Shown in pieces: positions 4,667 through 27,794 of a DNA stretch of 27,794 nucleotides (within the stretch, counting starts at the first letter, position 1; every line of letters begins with the position of its first letter). Origin of the DNA: a virus. The stretch is from the IMG/VR virus record IMGVR_UViG_3300036715_000697, positions 1 through 27,794 of that record. One strand, written 5' to 3'. Below the pieces are notes generated by a model. The model was not told the DNA's origin. It made no database searches and saw only the letters and a program-made list of their open reading frames with translations. A program made the position numbers and the translations under genes.

Positions 4667-5101
4667 TTACAACGCGTAGTCCGCTTGACCGTCAGTCACG
4701 TACATCACGCGCAGGGTAAGTTTCCCGGCAGTGGCTGTAGCAACCGTCGGCGCAACCGTGAGGCGGATACCAGTAGTGACCGCTGTGCGGAAACCAGTCG
4801 GTACCAGTGCGGTAGAAGCCGCTGTGGTCTTATCAGTTGCTCCTAAGTAGCGGGTAGCAGAACTTGCGTCGCCGACCGAGACATTGTAAGCGGTAGAACC
4901 GGTTACAGCCGTATCAGTAACGAGCGAGCCGCCGATAACTACTGAGTTAATGGGCATTGGAGCCACATCAAACACGTGGGTAGCGACAGTTGCGAAACCG
5001 TCGATTACGCCTGATGTATTGACCATCGTGTCCACAATGTTGAACACGAACTCCAACTCTTTTACGTCCTGCGCTGAGCGCGCTGCGATGATTAGGGCCA
5101 T
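4667..5101 (-). CDS. Putative capsid decoration/head protein
   Basis: The 144-residue protein directly follows the major capsid gene with a ten-base gap. Its N-terminus (MALIIAARSAQDVKELEFVFNIVD) is charged. The remainder is a Val/Thr/Ala-rich beta protein with repeated TAVTG- and TVATATAGKLT-type strands, like small capsid cement proteins. AAGGAG is placed about seven bases before the ATG. A strong site and the location next to the capsid gene suggest a protein needed in many copies. A tail-tube-like or head-completion protein is possible but less favoured. Confidence 0.7.
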   Translation of the reverse strand: MALIIAARSAQDVKELEFVFNIVDTMVNTSGVIDGFATVATHVFDVAPMPINSVVIGGSLVTDTAVTGSTAYNVSVGDASSATRYLGATDKTTAASTALVPTGFRTAVTTGIRLTVAPTVATATAGKLTLRVMYVTDGQADYAL

Positions 5102-5111
5102 GAGGTTCTCC

Positions 5112-6224
5112 TTATTGACCTACGATGCAACGCAAGACGCCGAAATCTTCGGTAGTACCTGAGTAGATCGAGTTGAAGACAGGCTTTTTGAAGCCCATGA
5201 TTTTGGATACCGAGATACCATGCTGATTGTCATAGTCGAAATCTTTCTCGACCCATGTGGAATCACCGATATCTGCGAAGCCCAACGCTTGTGCGCCACA
5301 GAACAGGGCATAACCACCATTCAACGTGTTGCCTGAACCCCACTTGGTTGTGCCGATGTTGTTCGGTACATGGCGATATTCATGCAAGACGACACCGTCA
5401 ATTGGTGTACCGATATCACCTGTGAACAGGGCGTTGTCACGACCGCGTGCAGCAGCATAGCGCTGAGCAGCGAGGTAGTTAGCATCGAGCTTCAAGCGAG
5501 CCATCATCTGAGGAGTTAGGAACAGGTGATACACCTCTTCGCCGTCACCCGTCTTGATACCGCGAATGAATTCATCCTTGGCGTAGGCTTTCAGCTGCAC
5601 GATCATGTCCCATGATGGCATATCGCCGATCACCAGATCCGATGTGGCGTTATTACCTGTGACAGAAGTGCGCAAACCGGAGGCTGCGGACCATTTCACT
5701 GCGCGGCGTGCCGATGTTGCTGTCACGTCTGCTGCGAACTCCAGACTAGGGAAATCAGAGCCAATGCGTGATCCACCGTTGGTTTTCAGCGTGTATGACA
5801 AACCAGCGAGCGTCAAGAACGCTAATTGGTCGGTACGCTCAGCTAACCAGTAGGCCAGTACATTTTTGGAATTGCCACGGAACTCGACAATCGACTTCTG
5901 GTCAGCGATGCGACCTTCAGATCGGTTAGCGTGACGTAATTGATCGATACGGATGACCTGATCGTACGTCTTCATCGCCTCTTCATTACCCTCTAGGGTA
6001 CGATCACCAGCGACGCCGTCGCCTTCAAGATCGGCCAGTAAGGTAATGACAGCACGTGCGCCCTTCTCGTCTTTTTTCAGCTCTGTTACGTGCTGAACCA
6101 TCGAGTTGGCATCGGAGCCTAGGAATTTGTTTAAGAACATCTGGTTGCGTGCTGCTTTCCAGAGGTCCTTAGACCAGACTGTTTTTTGCTCGGTCGTTAA
6201 GAGACCGAAATTGGTTAGGGCCAT
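5112..6224 (-). CDS. Major capsid protein, N4-gp56/DUF4043-like
   Basis: The 370-residue protein begins MALTNFGLLTTEQKTVWSKD and has the long helix plus extended-loop start typical of this HK97-fold capsid group. Recognisable features are the AVITLLADLEGDGVAGD strand and loop (residues about 60-76), the YDQVIRIDQLRHANRSEG segment, and the AYWLAERTDQLAFLTLAGLSY spine helix (about 124-144). A C-terminal DFGVLRCIVG closing strand follows. These match the DUF4043/N4-gp56 capsid family, which builds the icosahedral shell. GGAGG stands about six bases before the ATG. A 142-base gap upstream, the largest within the late operon, contains motifs shared with the terminase promoter region, so this gene may have its own promoter. 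Confidence 0.88.
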   Translation of the reverse strand: MALTNFGLLTTEQKTVWSKDLWKAARNQMFLNKFLGSDANSMVQHVTELKKDEKGARAVITLLADLEGDGVAGDRTLEGNEEAMKTYDQVIRIDQLRHANRSEGRIADQKSIVEFRGNSKNVLAYWLAERTDQLAFLTLAGLSYTLKTNGGSRIGSDFPSLEFAADVTATSARRAVKWSAASGLRTSVTGNNATSDLVIGDMPSWDMIVQLKAYAKDEFIRGIKTGDGEEVYHLFLTPQMMARLKLDANYLAAQRYAAARGRDNALFTGDIGTPIDGVVLHEYRHVPNNIGTTKWGSGNTLNGGYALFCGAQALGFADIGDSTWVEKDFDYDNQHGISVSKIMGFKKPVFNSIYSGTTEDFGVLRCIVGQ

Positions 6225-15910: not shown

Positions 15911-18250
15911 ATGAGAATCACGTATCTGATTGCACCGATGCCTCTCACTAAGAGCTACACAAAGAAGGACGGGGTGATCACAAAATCCAGTTACCCAATG
16001 GCGTACGAGTTCAGCTCCGCCACCGAAGACATGCCAGACCTTGCCAGCTTTGCTCGCTCCATCACCAAACACGCAGCACTTGGTCACTGCCTACTCAAAG
16101 GTGAAATCACTAAAGAACTCAAACACGAATCACGTGCCGGTAGTACTGATTCAAACTTGGCCACCGATTGGATCTGCCTCGATGTCGACGGCATACCAAA
16201 CTGCACAGCTGCCGAGTTTATGCAGCACATCAAATTGGACAACGTATCCCACATTGTTCAGTACTCAGCTTCATACATGGTCGAGAACAAGGACTTGAAG
16301 TGTCACATCTTCATTAATATAGATCCGCTCTCAGCACCAATCATCAAGCAGTGGTTAATTCAGCTCAACCACTCTACGCCAATCCTTAGATCGGCAATGA
16401 GCCTGACAAAGACTGGCAACTCACTTAGGTGGCCACTGGACATCACAGCCAGCCAGAACGACAAACTACTGTACATCACACCACCACTTATGAAGGGGAT
16501 GAAGGACACAGTTAAAGACCGCATCATTCTGATCAATGGCACTACGCATAAACTCAGTATTCCTAAAACAAACAACGCAGCACAGAACCGGGAACTCACG
16601 GACAAGCGCATCGCTGAGCTACGCGCTGCCGAAGGCTATCCCACGCGTAAGATTGCAATGAAGATGCACGGCTCCACGGAGGTCATGATTAAGCCTGACG
16701 CGTGTACTCTGTCAAACATCAAGAAAGATAGAGGCTTTGTCTACTTCAATCTCAACGGCGGAGACAGCTGGGGTTACTACCACCCAGAGGACAACCCTGA
16801 GTTCATCCACAACTTCAAAGGCGAGCCGTCTTACTTAACCAAGGAACTGCTGCCTGATTACTGGAAAGAACTCCAGGAGTCATCCAGCGCTACGCGGTCA
16901 GACGGTACCACATACTTAGCCTTCACGGACAAGCAGACCGGTCAGTACTGGCGTGGCACGCACGATGCAGCCACAGATGTTCTCGACATCTACCCTGCCA
17001 AGAACGAGACGCAGATGCGCCACTTCGCCAAGCAGCACGGCATGCCGCTCGGTGATTACATTCCTGAATGGGATCTCTGTTTCGACCCGATGGACTCAGT
17101 CCGTGTCGACCCAGTCAACCGCTCAGTTAATACATTTCAGCCCACTATATATATGATGAAGCTGCCAGACAAGAAGATCAAGACCTGCCCTAAGCTCTGT
17201 CTGCGCCTATTCCATCACGTGTGTGGTGGTGACATGGCTATTACTGAACACTGGATCAACTGGCTCGCGTATATCATCCAGTACCGCACACGCACCTGTA
17301 CCTCATGGGTACTGCACGGCCGTACTGGTACCGGTAAAGGCGCGCTGTTCCACAAAATATTACGCCCACTCTTCGGCCTTAACCAGACCGTGATCCGCAA
17401 CATGGAAGCGCTCAATGAACAATACAACGACTATATGGAAAAGTCCCTCATCATATTCGTGGATGAGGTTGATGCCAAGGCGCTTATCAACGAGCAGGGA
17501 GTCATGGCGAAAATGCGCAGCTACATCACAGAGGAAAAAGTTCCGGTACGTGCTATGTATCAAGGCCAACGGGAGATTCAAAATTATAGTAACTGGATCT
17601 TATCGAGCAACCAGTCTACGCCCGTCTCGATCACGAAGGATGACCGCCGTACGAACGTCGCTAAATTTCAAAAACAGCCACTCCTCGAAGTAATGACGTC
17701 GGAAGAGATCGACCAGCTCGAAGACGAGCTGCAAGCGCTGCATGACTACCTCGTTCAGTACAAGGTAGACCTGAAAGCGGTCAGCACACCGATACAGACC
17801 GAAGACCGGAGCACGCTCATGTCGATCAGCGAAGCGTCTGTCGATACCGTCGGGTCTGCGCTCATCGCTGGAGACTTGCCATACTTCATAAACAGCTTAC
17901 CGACGAGCGACGCATACAAGAACATCGCCAAGCTGTTCAACGAAGTTGAGTCATACAAAGACGTACTGGTTGCTATCATCGAGCGCACTACACCTGATGG
18001 TAAATGCGTAGTTACCCGTGATGAGCTATTCATCCTGTTCAACTACACCATTGGCAACATGCCCACTAGCCCGAACAAGTTCACCAGCCTACTCAAGCAC
18101 CACCGCATACACACAGAGAAAGTCTGGGTGGAGCGTGCAGTGATGGGCCTGAAAGTGACCTGGGCACACCCGGAGAAACTCACTGAGTATCTCCTTGAGA
18201 TCCACCCACCACCGGTTATTAAGCCGGTAAAGTTAAAGGCTGTGAAATGA
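15911..18250 (+). CDS. Primase-polymerase/superfamily 3 helicase replication protein
   Basis: The 779-residue protein joins two replication activities. The N-terminal part has archaeo-eukaryotic primase features: DWICLDVDG with D91 and D93 as the metal-binding pair, KCHIFINI with H132, and a SLRWP basic motif (171-175). The C-terminal part is a viral SF3-type helicase: Walker A HGRTGTGKG (469-477), Walker B LIIFVDEVD (513-521), ILSSNQ (563-568, motif C asparagine), then KDDRR (576-580) as a probable arginine finger. The family resembles D5-like/DUF5906 phage primases. It would start and drive phage DNA replication. It is the first gene of its operon and its stop overlaps the next ATG. The region between (about 230-400) is not assigned. 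Confidence 0.85.
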   Translation: MRITYLIAPMPLTKSYTKKDGVITKSSYPMAYEFSSATEDMPDLASFARSITKHAALGHCLLKGEITKELKHESRAGSTDSNLATDWICLDVDGIPNCTAAEFMQHIKLDNVSHIVQYSASYMVENKDLKCHIFINIDPLSAPIIKQWLIQLNHSTPILRSAMSLTKTGNSLRWPLDITASQNDKLLYITPPLMKGMKDTVKDRIILINGTTHKLSIPKTNNAAQNRELTDKRIAELRAAEGYPTRKIAMKMHGSTEVMIKPDACTLSNIKKDRGFVYFNLNGGDSWGYYHPEDNPEFIHNFKGEPSYLTKELLPDYWKELQESSSATRSDGTTYLAFTDKQTGQYWRGTHDAATDVLDIYPAKNETQMRHFAKQHGMPLGDYIPEWDLCFDPMDSVRVDPVNRSVNTFQPTIYMMKLPDKKIKTCPKLCLRLFHHVCGGDMAITEHWINWLAYIIQYRTRTCTSWVLHGRTGTGKGALFHKILRPLFGLNQTVIRNMEALNEQYNDYMEKSLIIFVDEVDAKALINEQGVMAKMRSYITEEKVPVRAMYQGQREIQNYSNWILSSNQSTPVSITKDDRRTNVAKFQKQPLLEVMTSEEIDQLEDELQALHDYLVQYKVDLKAVSTPIQTEDRSTLMSISEASVDTVGSALIAGDLPYFINSLPTSDAYKNIAKLFNEVESYKDVLVAIIERTTPDGKCVVTRDELFILFNYTIGNMPTSPNKFTSLLKHHRIHTEKVWVERAVMGLKVTWAHPEKLTEYLLEIHPPPVIKPVKLKAVK

Positions 18251-18603
18251 AAACATCAAAACTTATAAGTGCTCAACTTGATTGGGCTGTTGCGAAGTGT
18301 GAGGAGCTACTCAACCAGCCAGACGTTCGTATTGGGTATGACGACATATCCTTTACGTTTCAAGAAAAACGTGTGTATTGGCGCCCTTCAGAAAATTGGG
18401 CACAAGGTGGTCCGATCATTGAAAGCGAGCGTCTTTGCTTAGACATAGGGCATGACGGCGTTTGGTTAGCCGCCAATAAACAGAACTATGATGACGTTCC
18501 TAACTTTATGAACTCAGGACCAACCCCACTCATCGCAGCCATGCGCTGCTATGTCGCCTCAAAACTTGGGGACGAAGTTGAACTACCGGAGGAATTGAAA
18601 TGA
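18247..18603 (+). CDS. DUF2591/NinX-like phage protein
   Basis: The 118-residue protein shows the DUF2591 pattern: an N-terminal LDWAVAKCEELL helix, then ENWAQGGPIIESERL (about 61-75), then TPLIAAMRCYVASKLGDEVE at the C-terminus (about 93-112). The NinX/DUF2591 family is common in proteobacterial phage accessory regions and has no established activity. The ATG overlaps the primase stop (ATGA), so it should be expressed with the replication protein. Confidence 0.75.
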   Translation: MKTSKLISAQLDWAVAKCEELLNQPDVRIGYDDISFTFQEKRVYWRPSENWAQGGPIIESERLCLDIGHDGVWLAANKQNYDDVPNFMNSGPTPLIAAMRCYVASKLGDEVELPEELK

Positions 18604-24303: not shown

Positions 24304-24621
24304 ATGAGCTACAAACAAATAATTGTCATCATTGGATTTGGTCTGGCAGTGATGTTTCTTGCCGCAGTATCTTCATGCACATCAAAAGCAGAAGAACCGC
24401 CAAAGAAAAAATTCAGCCACAAAGACGTTCAAGGTGAATTTAGATCAAAGCAATTTACGATTGACGAACACGAGCATATTACTGTATTCGATGTACCAGA
24501 TCGGTATGAGCCGCATCGATGCTGGGTATGGACAAGCGATAAAACCAATACTTCCCATATGAAATGCGATGACGATCCACAATCGAGCATCCCCGATAAT
24601 ATGGGAACGCTCGATAATTAA
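24304..24621 (+). CDS. Putative lipoprotein (105 aa)
   Basis: The 105-residue protein starts with MSYKQIIVIIGFGLAVMFLA, a signal-like hydrophobic segment, and then a lipobox-like VSSC with the cysteine at about position 25. The mature part is polar (SKAEEPPKKKFSHKDVQGEF) and contains two more cysteines (HRCWVW, HMKCDDD) suitable for a disulfide in the periplasm. The start has an AAGGA site. It converges with the large virion gene, four bases apart. Small lipoproteins next to integrase genes are often superinfection-exclusion (lysogenic conversion) factors. That is inferred by analogy; a spanin Rz1 is unlikely because it lacks a proline-rich tail and an Rz partner. Confidence 0.6.
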   Translation: MSYKQIIVIIGFGLAVMFLAAVSSCTSKAEEPPKKKFSHKDVQGEFRSKQFTIDEHEHITVFDVPDRYEPHRCWVWTSDKTNTSHMKCDDDPQSSIPDNMGTLDN

Positions 24622-24625
24622 TTAC

Positions 24626-27600
24626 CTATTTTATTTCGTCAATTGACTGTTTTTGATCCTCGGTAGCATGTTGGTACATCTTCTTATATGAGCCTGTTGA
24701 CATCGGTTTTGAAGGATTCTGAGCGCGATTAATTGCCCCTATAGCTTCTTTCGGTGACATGCCAATATCAATCAGTAACTCCCTCGCCTTATCTTCATCG
24801 CCTTCTTTTAATGCTCGTTTAACATCTGGCATGGCATTGACTTTACGATCTTGGAAGTCGCGCATCACTTTGTACTCTTCAGCCAATTCATCGCCGCCAG
24901 TGACTTTGCTATAAGTTAATCCGACGAATGGACCTAGTGCTTTTTTCTTGTCTATGTCATCAGCCTTACCTGCAGCGATATCCTTAAAGGCAACTAATTG
25001 ATCATAAGGGATTTGCGCCTTCATAAAGTGCCAAGCCGCTTTACCGATCTGGATACCTGCCGCATCATGGTCACCGTAGATAGAATGATCGAAATTATCC
25101 TTACCGGTAATTGCCTGAAATCCACCGCTAACCATAGGCGACAGCTTACTACCAAGAAGTTTCGCTGCCGTGCTAAGTGATGAATAGGCTTCCAGTTCTT
25201 CACCAACTTTACCAAATGGAACCCGAACATAGATCGTGCTTCCATCCTTATCATCGCCAAGTCGCGCGCGGTTACGATGCCCTTCGGGATTATGACCTTG
25301 TGGTGTCAGTGATTCCAATGATGTAAATGGATGGCTGACGATATCAATCAAGGATTTACTTTTCAGTTCATTGAAGCGCTCGCCAAATTTATCCAGTTGA
25401 TCGGCCCAGGTCTTATGTGTTTCTTCATTCTCAAAATAAGCCTGAACAATTGCATTTGCCGCATAAGCAAGCGCAATATCAAGGACAACAGTTTGACGCG
25501 CTTTGGATTTTGCAATCTTCTTAGCTTGAGACAAAGTATCATCACCAGACTTGTTCGCTTCAGCATCAGCCTTGCCAATCGCCTTTGCCGCTTCGACTGC
25601 CGCCGCCTTAATCATGGCCTGGCGATTTGGAGGAAGCCCGTTGACCATATCTTTCATCAGGCCCATATTGCCAAGAGTGAATGAGCGCGAGAACATTACT
25701 GTATTGGCTATCTCCCTCGCATATTGCCCCATGGCTTCAGCAGGCAATGCGCCAGCATAGCGGTTCGCCATGTGCGAGGCTAATGTCGTGGCCGTGTATT
25801 CATCAAGCCCCTTATTGATTAGGCTAGTCTTGATCGTGACAGCAAGTCCCATTTGTAAATCAGCAATCCGGTTCCAAAGTAAAGTACCGTGCCAGAAGTC
25901 GCCAGCCTTATCCACGCCAGCGCGCACCTTGTCGCCAGCCTGTTTATTAATCAAGTCAACCGCCGAACCTAAAGCCTTTGCTGTCCAGCTCTTGCCGACT
26001 TCCATGCTTGATCCGTCAGCAATACCGTTGATATCCGCATTGAAGCCACGACCTCCAAGCGGAACTAGGCCATGTGCGATAAAGTCTTTCATGATCGCGT
26101 CATTCTGCTTGGCTTGATGCCCAACAACAAAGGTATAAATCCCCAACGTAGCCAGATTCTTACCTGCATCAGCTTTCGATACTGACGTTAACATGGCGGG
26201 AGCAGACCGGCCATATTCAACGGCTAAGTGAATGGCTGGCGACATCATAATCAAGCCCATGGATTTAGACTTGAGATTCATGATCGCCTGATAGCCAGGT
26301 AAAGATTCCCGATTCAGCACGGCACGCAATGGGCCTTCAAATTCCTTGCTGATATACAGTGGAACCCGCTTGGTAATCACATCACCGTTTTCATCTAGTC
26401 GAGCGCGCATCTTGCCCGTATCGGGATCTTCTATCATTTCAACTGATGTTTTACGCAAAGCAGGATGATCCATGGTGAAGTAATTTTTGTCACCGGCTTT
26501 GTACTCGGATACCGCATCGACACCAGTAGATTCCCCGATAGCTTTTACCTGATTGACTAACTCACGACCAGCGACAGCCGACTCTAATCGTGCCATCGCC
26601 ATCGGCATAGTGCGGATATTCCTAACAATAGTCGCCGTCTTACCTTCCTCATTCATACCTTGGGCTGCGGCTTCCGTTTCTGCACTTGTCAAATACTTGC
26701 GTTGCTTCAGACTGCTTGCATTGGTGCGAAGATTTCTTGCGTCCTTGCTTCCTTCAAATGGGCCGCCTGACTGTGGCATATGCAAACGACCGTCTGCGTC
26801 AACTAACATGACCATGCGCGGTGTCCAGTAGGCGACACCTTCACCGTCAAACATGCCGTTATCCGTGGCACGTTTTAACAGATGCTCACCATAGGCATGC
26901 AGAAACTCAACAACTTGACGCTCTCTTGGCTCTAGGCTATTCAATCCCTTGTCTTGAGATGTAACACCATCGCGTCGCAGATCATTTTCCTGATCGGCAG
27001 CATCCCACATTTTTTCTTGCTGCTCTTTGGTAAATTCCTTGACGATAATTTCGTCAAACTTATTCCATTGCTGGCGTGCTTGACGGCCTGCATCGGCAAA
27101 CTTCGTAGCGACTACCTGCGCCGATTCAGATCCCATTGACATAGGAATAACAGCAGTACCGATACGGTCTAGCGGGGATTTGATGAACTCAGCTGGAACC
27201 CTGAGAATTTTACTCAGCATTCCTTTGACTTTGCTTGCTGAATTTTCAGGTGTTACGCCTTCATTGCGTGGTGCAAATTCATCTTGTGCTTCGCGTTGTG
27301 GACTAAATTTTGACTCTATTTTTCTTTGCGGAAGGCCATTCTTGCCATCATCATGGTGCGACGATTGTTCTTCAGCAAGGATTCGACTTCGGATGGTGTC
27401 AGTCGGTTTGTAGTTGGCGAGGTAACGGGCCTCTGATTCTGTGAGCGCGTCGAATCCATAGCCTTTTGAGGATTTGAATTGTTGCTCGATGTCGCCATGT
27501 TTTTCACGAATATTCCCTAATGTCTTATCAGACAGGCTTATTTTGGCACTGTACTGCTTTCCTGTCAATGTCGCCGATCCAATGACATGACCACCGTTTC

Positions 27601-27794
27601 TTTCAATATGATCTGAAAGTGCAGCAAATGTACCACCTTGCGTCACAGTATCATCAACCAAGAAGTATGACTTTCCTTGTTCAACTTCACCGTCAAATTC
27701 GGGACGATTAAATATGCGATCAAGTCCAGATAGTCCAGTACGTTTTGGGCTAGTTGATTGATAGATAGTTTCACCAACTTGATGGCCTAATTCT
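24626..27794 (-). CDS. Large polyvalent virion protein with phosphoribosyltransferase-like domain, N-terminus beyond right edge
   Basis: The frame is open to the right edge, giving 1055 visible residues; TTG 27661 is an internal codon, not the start. Visible residues 1-105 look like a type I phosphoribosyltransferase: the hydrophobic strand SYFLVDD leads into VDDTVTQGGT (about 46-55), the PRPP-binding loop, followed by a helix (FAALSDHIERNGG) and the strand VIGSATL. The middle (about 190-600) is helical, with segments like VAYWTPRMVML and MGLIMMSPAIHLAVEYGRSAP. The C-terminal third is Ala- and Lys-rich with a hydrophobic MVNGLPPNRQAMIKAAAVEA region and the YVRVPFGKVGEELEAY motif, reminiscent of the PLxRFG/LPD-type ends of giant phage proteins. 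Such proteins are packaged and injected with DNA. The enzyme target is unknown. Confidence 0.8.
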   Translation of the reverse strand, partial: ELGHQVGETIYQSTSPKRTGLSGLDRIFNRPEFDGEVEQGKSYFLVDDTVTQGGTFAALSDHIERNGGHVIGSATLTGKQYSAKISLSDKTLGNIREKHGDIEQQFKSSKGYGFDALTESEARYLANYKPTDTIRSRILAEEQSSHHDDGKNGLPQRKIESKFSPQREAQDEFAPRNEGVTPENSASKVKGMLSKILRVPAEFIKSPLDRIGTAVIPMSMGSESAQVVATKFADAGRQARQQWNKFDEIIVKEFTKEQQEKMWDAADQENDLRRDGVTSQDKGLNSLEPRERQVVEFLHAYGEHLLKRATDNGMFDGEGVAYWTPRMVMLVDADGRLHMPQSGGPFEGSKDARNLRTNASSLKQRKYLTSAETEAAAQGMNEEGKTATIVRNIRTMPMAMARLESAVAGRELVNQVKAIGESTGVDAVSEYKAGDKNYFTMDHPALRKTSVEMIEDPDTGKMRARLDENGDVITKRVPLYISKEFEGPLRAVLNRESLPGYQAIMNLKSKSMGLIMMSPAIHLAVEYGRSAPAMLTSVSKADAGKNLATLGIYTFVVGHQAKQNDAIMKDFIAHGLVPLGGRGFNADINGIADGSSMEVGKSWTAKALGSAVDLINKQAGDKVRAGVDKAGDFWHGTLLWNRIADLQMGLAVTIKTSLINKGLDEYTATTLASHMANRYAGALPAEAMGQYAREIANTVMFSRSFTLGNMGLMKDMVNGLPPNRQAMIKAAAVEAAKAIGKADAEANKSGDDTLSQAKKIAKSKARQTVVLDIALAYAANAIVQAYFENEETHKTWADQLDKFGERFNELKSKSLIDIVSHPFTSLESLTPQGHNPEGHRNRARLGDDKDGSTIYVRVPFGKVGEELEAYSSLSTAAKLLGSKLSPMVSGGFQAITGKDNFDHSIYGDHDAAGIQIGKAAWHFMKAQIPYDQLVAFKDIAAGKADDIDKKKALGPFVGLTYSKVTGGDELAEEYKVMRDFQDRKVNAMPDVKRALKEGDEDKARELLIDIGMSPKEAIGAINRAQNPSKPMSTGSYKKMYQHATEDQKQSIDEIK

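Follow-up and report, generated by a model that had tools for sequence, protein, structure and literature searches.

A KfrC-type phosphoribosyltransferase domain in a giant, probably injected polyvalent protein of an environmental phage

The window analyzed here, a stretch of viral DNA of 27,794 nucleotides (IMG/VR record IMGVR_UViG_3300036715_000697), carries genes for a P22-like portal protein, a terminase, an SU10 adaptor, a capsid protein and an integrase. At its right edge lies the end of a giant gene with the following features.

24626..27793, minus strand: C-terminal 1,055 residues of the giant polyvalent protein gene, an open frame truncated by the right edge of the record
24629..27247, minus strand: C-module, residues 183-1055 (~870 aa), common to about 20 environmental phage giants and proposed to be a carrier/packaging module
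27248..27376, minus strand: linker, residues 140-182, at the place where the relative L002 has an extra ~520-aa module (BLASTP)
27377..27793, minus strand: C-terminal part of a type I phosphoribosyltransferase (PRTase) of the KfrC/PHROG 22413 type, residues 1-139 (PHROG 22413, E=9e-52)
27629..27667, minus strand: PRPP-loop motif YFLVDDTVTQGGT, residues 43-55, followed by a helix and VIGSATL
27659..27661, minus strand: TTG codon that an ORF caller would pick as the start; it is Leu45, inside the PRPP-binding strand, and a false start

No start codon for the 1,055-aa frame was found within the window, and the gene start and the preceding gene lie beyond the edge, the record stopping at 27794. 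Upstream of the matched region, full-length relatives have several hundred to ~2,700 extra residues (947 in the nearest relative), which marks the TTG at 27661 as a false start. As this codon is Leu45 of the PRPP-loop strand, annotation from it would sever the strand. Both points had been made in the first-pass annotation from the letters alone, namely, that the gene runs past the edge and that a start at this TTG would cut the motif from its strand, and both were borne out, the full-length relatives L002 and L053 being 2,489 and 2,433 aa long. BLASTP of the window protein against L002 gave two collinear blocks, the PRTase (64% identity over 174 residues) and the C terminus (46% over 881 residues). 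Between them, residues 1121-1641 of L002, an L002-specific region of ~520 aa, were unmatched by the window protein, and this region matched no Pfam family. Relatives of the ~520-aa module (L002 8523-10085) were observed in Dolichospermum phage Dfl-JY45, in an environmental myovirus, second in line behind the gene for the head-tail connector, and in gp34 of Pelagibacter phage HTVC028P, which adjoins internal virion proteins.

It is virtually certain that residues 1-139 are part of a type I PRTase domain. The match to PHROG 22413, a family of unknown function, covered profile positions 94-238 of 242; since it starts at position 94, ~93 positions fall outside the window on its right side, and about 85 to 95 N-terminal PRTase residues are estimated to lie beyond the edge. 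Pfam Pribosyltran (PF00156) matched the partial domain at E=5.5e-5, with 23.0 bits against a cutoff of 26.3. The score falls just short because the N-terminal half of the PRTase is outside the window, and full-length L053 scored 27.1 bits, above the cutoff. Many weak NCBIfam PRTase models covered the same residues, and a search of viral contigs found 44 homologous viral loci. The complete domain of L002, the nearest relative (L002 7740-8492; 71% identical to the window PRTase over 141 columns), was used for modeling and fold search. The model, from an alignment with 22 others, had a pLDDT of 83.5 and a pTM of 0.78, and Foldseek returned 102 PDB matches at E<=0.001, ComF being first (1.3e-5). 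Further fold matches were APRT, PyrR, UMP synthase, PurR, OPRT and HPRT, with moderate TM scores of 0.3 to 0.5, and a PDB-sequence profile search with the same domain gave APRT, HPRT, PRPP synthase and ComF. The VDDTVTQGGT region, in which the first-pass annotation had recognized the type I PRTase pattern, was thus placed in the PRTase fold by Pfam, NCBIfam, PHROG, PDB-profile and fold searches. A local match of residues 140-184 of the L002 domain (LTGKQYSAKI..TLGNIREKHG) to PDB polyubiquitin (E=5e-4) was judged a chance likeness, since the model has a PRTase strand and helix there and no beta-grasp fold.

In the L002 model, strand 129-137 is followed by helix 141-152, with the acidic pair and the Gly-rich loop at the end of the strand, before the helix. 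Invariant in 24 aligned relatives (L002 numbering) were D134, D135, Q139, G140, G141, T142, R105, T106 and K166; in another alignment, L053 alone had H at the arginine site. The canonical T/S at the first position of the TGxT loop was not found; the position is Q in the phage type and M in KfrC and L053, so that the relatives form two loop subtypes, Q and M. This is a variation within a PRTase fold that is kept. L053 and the window share only 34% identity in the PRTase, and the loop of L053, DDVTTMGGT, is KfrC-like. In an alignment with bacterial HPRT (4pfq), the conserved TGK lysine corresponds to the lysine following the LL strand, which in human HPRT recognizes the purine. A purine preference of the phage PRTase is our guess, drawn from the position of the TGK lysine.

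A tblastn search with the L002 domain found 168 plasmid records with KfrC-type homologues (best E value of 3e-45). The KfrC proteins of IncU and IncP plasmids were matched at an E value of about 1e-40, with homology end to end, and the plasmid kfrC genes adjoin kfrA, kfrB, incC/korB and tra genes. KfrC of the IncU plasmid RA3 and of the IncP-1 alpha plasmid RK2/RP4 resembles the phage domain over the whole ~230-aa PRTase part, in which AAKxGD, ExxxxNxIP, DDTxxxGGT, LTxxEA and DRI align in collinear order, the first forming a helix and the last being terminal. In contrast to the phage type, KfrC is a plasmid protein of 350 to 450 aa with a partner-binding tail, expressed from the plasmid and not injected from a virion; its loop is DDTxxMGGT, and it lacks the TGKQYSA segment and the purine-pocket-like lysine. 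The tree grouped the window and L002 PRTases (99/96) and held KfrC as a clade (100/100), with L053 and Moraxella phage Mcat8 on long branches and the deep order unsure. A solo PRTase of 237 aa was also seen on Acinetobacter plasmids (4968-5681 in both L057 and L058), just upstream of a tyrosine-type integrase gene; it is called "recombinase" in some records and, unlike KfrC, has the phage-type DDTQTQGGT and TGKQYSS.

Overproduction of KfrC of the IncU plasmid RA3 retards growth of Escherichia coli and condenses its nucleoids, and changing DDT 141-143 to AAA abolishes the growth effect; the toxicity is an overproduction effect and depends on the host (Mitura et al. 2021, PMC8124265). IncU KfrC is 38% identical to the window PRTase, and in the alignment the DDT that was mutated in KfrC is matched by the phage DDT. 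In RP4, the kfrABC operon lies in the leading region and is zygotically induced in new transconjugants (PMC7314908). No catalytic activity for KfrC is reported in the portions of the KfrC literature considered here, and none of the examined papers that mention KfrC, judged by title and the start of the abstract, joins KfrC to the phage polyvalent PRTases; the text of Mitura et al. 2021 (PMC8124265) contains neither "polyvalent" nor "Iyer". Given the Q versus M loop and the lack of the phage-type lysine in KfrC, the KfrC data may not transfer to the phage domain.

These features bear on whether the PRTase is an enzyme. It may instead be noncatalytic, a DNA-entry or protein-docking part that acts where the DNA enters as a sensor of PRPP, nucleotides or single-stranded nucleic acid (like PurR, and as proposed for ComF). 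ComF as the best PDB fold match, with PurR and PyrR among the next, and the noncanonical Q at the first T/S position of the loop would suit such a sensor, but none of the 24 aligned relatives departs from either acidic residue or from G-G-T, and the DDT change in KfrC removes the growth effect, although it might abolish binding only. We consider a sensor unlikely, and catalytic activity of the phage PRTase on a nucleotide-type substrate reasonably probable.

The C-module had no Pfam or PHROG match, and with the L002 copy as the query no relative was found among 50,697 phage records. With an alignment of three copies as the query, 22 environmental viral loci were found at 33 to 47% identity, and in every one of them a long frame (1,174 to 3,483 aa in the available sequence) has the module at its C terminus. 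Among those loci, it is preceded by a PRTase in L002 and L053 only. Upstream of it are two ART-PolyVal domains and PBECR5 in L149 and ddrB-ParB and peptidase M15 in L155; the chain of L053 has InPase (E=1e-53), ART-PolyVal (9e-21) and the Pribosyltran match, all over the Pfam cutoff, and then the C-module. A model from 17 sequences (pLDDT 73.7, pTM 0.71) had no PDB counterpart in a fold search. The fold matched 50 viral proteins at E<=0.001 and 9 to 14% identity, many of them named large polyvalent protein associated domain-containing protein and one LPD38. Membership of LPD38 (PF18857) by sequence was rejected, with no profile match in the window protein and a probability of 3% in hhalign against LPD38-bearing relatives. 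LPD38-type regions and the C-module are both C-terminal, ~800 to 1,000 aa long and matched in their overall helical fold, but not in sequence. The modeled fold leads us to read the C-module as belonging, distantly, to one class of folds found at the C termini of polyvalent proteins, and it is most likely the packaging and ejection (carrier) part of the chain. The first-pass annotation had described the PRTase as fused to more than 900 residues of virion-like sequence. A long fused region is indeed present, but no sequence profile supports the term "virion-like"; such a character is instead suggested by the likeness of the fold to polyvalent C termini and by the position of the gene in relatives.

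Some related observations were made on other giants. "FSR" as a general interdomain punctuation motif was rejected, as it occurred at background in 60 dereplicated ART-PolyVal giants (24 versus 19.8 expected; 10 to 31 for permuted motifs); in PRTase-bearing giants 85 were seen versus 11.7 expected, but these sequences are related. A search for ART-PolyVal in the whole genomes of three hosts gave no lead. One giant protein of phage Dfl-JY45 (L054 5943-13103) had four ART-PolyVal matches.

The virion context of the gene was taken from relatives. In L153, tail genes with a T7-like arrangement are followed by an internal virion protein gene with an endolysin domain (phrog_342), directly after which comes the giant gene; L155 has a gene for a DNA-ejection protein (phrog_598) shortly upstream of the giant gene; and in L002, a gene for a transglycosylase-type head/injection protein directly precedes it. 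That the gene follows internal virion, DNA-ejection and transglycosylase genes in three relatives makes packaging likely. Neither the head genes nor the tail genes of the window were convincingly matched in the relatives' loci; the virion context is therefore borrowed across phages, and the giant gene appears to move between them. A literature search on virion proteomics of polyvalent proteins gave no lead. The ParB domain of P1 DdrB, a protein packaged in the head (PMC5512222), is found in L155. From the gene neighbors and the partners of the C-module in relatives, the giant protein is probably both packaged and ejected.

Two further observations concern genes of the window itself. A DUF5906 replication-type protein gene (15911-18250, plus strand) is followed by one for a small protein, phrog_4389 (18247-18603, plus strand), which L002 and L150 likewise encode, at ~6 kb or less from the giant gene; besides the giant gene, it is the only gene clearly common to the window and these two loci. 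A small lipoprotein-like gene (24304-24621, plus strand) is convergent with the giant gene and lies 0 to 6 bases from its stop, and genes placed in this way are also present in L149 (10493-10783, minus strand), L157 (10550-10876, minus strand), L161 and L164. The pairing thus occurs in the window and at least two other C-module phage groups, with proteins unrelated by eye. A role in superinfection exclusion or lysogeny, as a partner of the ejected protein, is conceivable for the lipoprotein-like gene.

Alternatively, the giant may not be injected and may serve as an assembly or ejection scaffold in the capsid or the producing cell, with the PRTase acting late in nucleotide supply for phage synthesis. 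In relatives, the gene does lie among late structural and lysis-proximal genes, and a late enzyme would be present when nucleotides are needed. However, the companion domains ART, PBECR RNase, ddrB-ParB and InPase make sense as delivered effectors, P1 DdrB is a packaged precedent, and the neighboring genes encode ejection or internal virion proteins, so that a noninjected role seems quite improbable to us. A decayed relic, with the gene broken beyond the edge and the PRTase an evolutionary leftover, is highly improbable: the record end does place integrity out of view and broken PRTase copies exist, as in Mcat5 (see below), but the 1,055 codons are stop free, the catalytic residues and the module are intact, and the same PRTase is kept in L002.

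PRTases in phage polyvalent proteins, including MuF fusions and a ComFC-like arginine, were described by Iyer et al. 2017 (PMC5512222), who proposed that the PRTase makes or senses a nucleotide at DNA entry; its role in injected phage proteins was called enigmatic at this first description, and neither the KfrC homology nor the toxicity data are mentioned in the main text. With high confidence, the window protein is a polyvalent giant in the sense of Iyer et al. 2017. This reading of the first-pass annotation is upheld by L053, one of the nearest full-length relatives, whose single chain combines InPase, ART-PolyVal and PRTase; several unrelated enzyme domains per chain are present in L053, and the visible part of the window protein has one effector and the C-module. 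The PRTase in polyvalent proteins was already known, and the window adds another member. New here are the KfrC homology, the Q/M loop subtypes and the unprofiled C-module with exchangeable effectors. Compared with the PRTase polyvalent and MuF proteins of Iyer et al., the window PRTase is joined directly to a C-module that has neither a Pfam nor a PHROG profile. In the Moraxella phage Mcat8 "coat protein" (AKI27357), a 43% identical PRTase with the loop DDVITQGGT is fused to a MuF-like head-associated domain (MuF being assigned by the HFNCRSSFE motif and position, not by a profile), and the gene is directly after the portal gene; unlike the window giant, it is a two-domain protein of 579 aa without the C-module. 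Moraxella phage Mcat5 (L067 3758-5600) encodes the MuF-like "coat protein" apart from the PRTase, and its PRTase is annotated in pieces, as several short genes; the arrangement has the look of a Mcat8-type fusion that has been broken. The N4 virion RNA polymerase is alike in organization only, as a giant virion protein with the effector before a long C-terminal encapsidation region (PMC5512222), but no RNA polymerase domain was seen in the window protein.

Starting from what was computed (the PRTase fold, its conserved acidic pair, the KfrC homology, the modular C terminus and the late virion context in relatives), we propose the following. The giant late protein would be packaged in virions and would reach the host by ejection along with the DNA, the C-module serving as the carrier for packaging and ejection and the domains before it as interchangeable early effectors. 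In the cytoplasm, the KfrC-type PRTase would bind PRPP via the DD-T-x-x-Q-G-G-T loop and may transfer phosphoribosyl to, or use PRPP with, a purine-like host substrate. The nucleotide or PRPP state of the host would thereby be shifted as the DNA enters, and host growth may be slowed to the benefit of phage takeover. We moderately favor this whole explanation of an injected polyvalent protein with a KfrC-type PRTase slowing the host at DNA entry; for the PRTase as the growth-slowing entry effector in the form proposed, we would put the chances at a little under even.

The KfrC homology is the most direct lead to the function of injected phage PRTases, and with the overproduction phenotype and the dead-site mutant of KfrC, this function becomes a simple bench question. 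The C-module, which is in neither Pfam nor the PHROGs yet is joined to many known effectors, offers a handle for unannotated injected effectors in environmental phages. Tentatively, and as a possibility that we hold to be somewhat doubtful, one PRTase family may serve unrelated invaders, delivered from the virion by phages and zygotically induced as KfrC by plasmids, to arrest or reprogram host nucleotide metabolism at DNA entry, with the phage form being carried in by a C-terminal fold that would be widespread and would accept interchangeable toxic or counterdefense enzymes.
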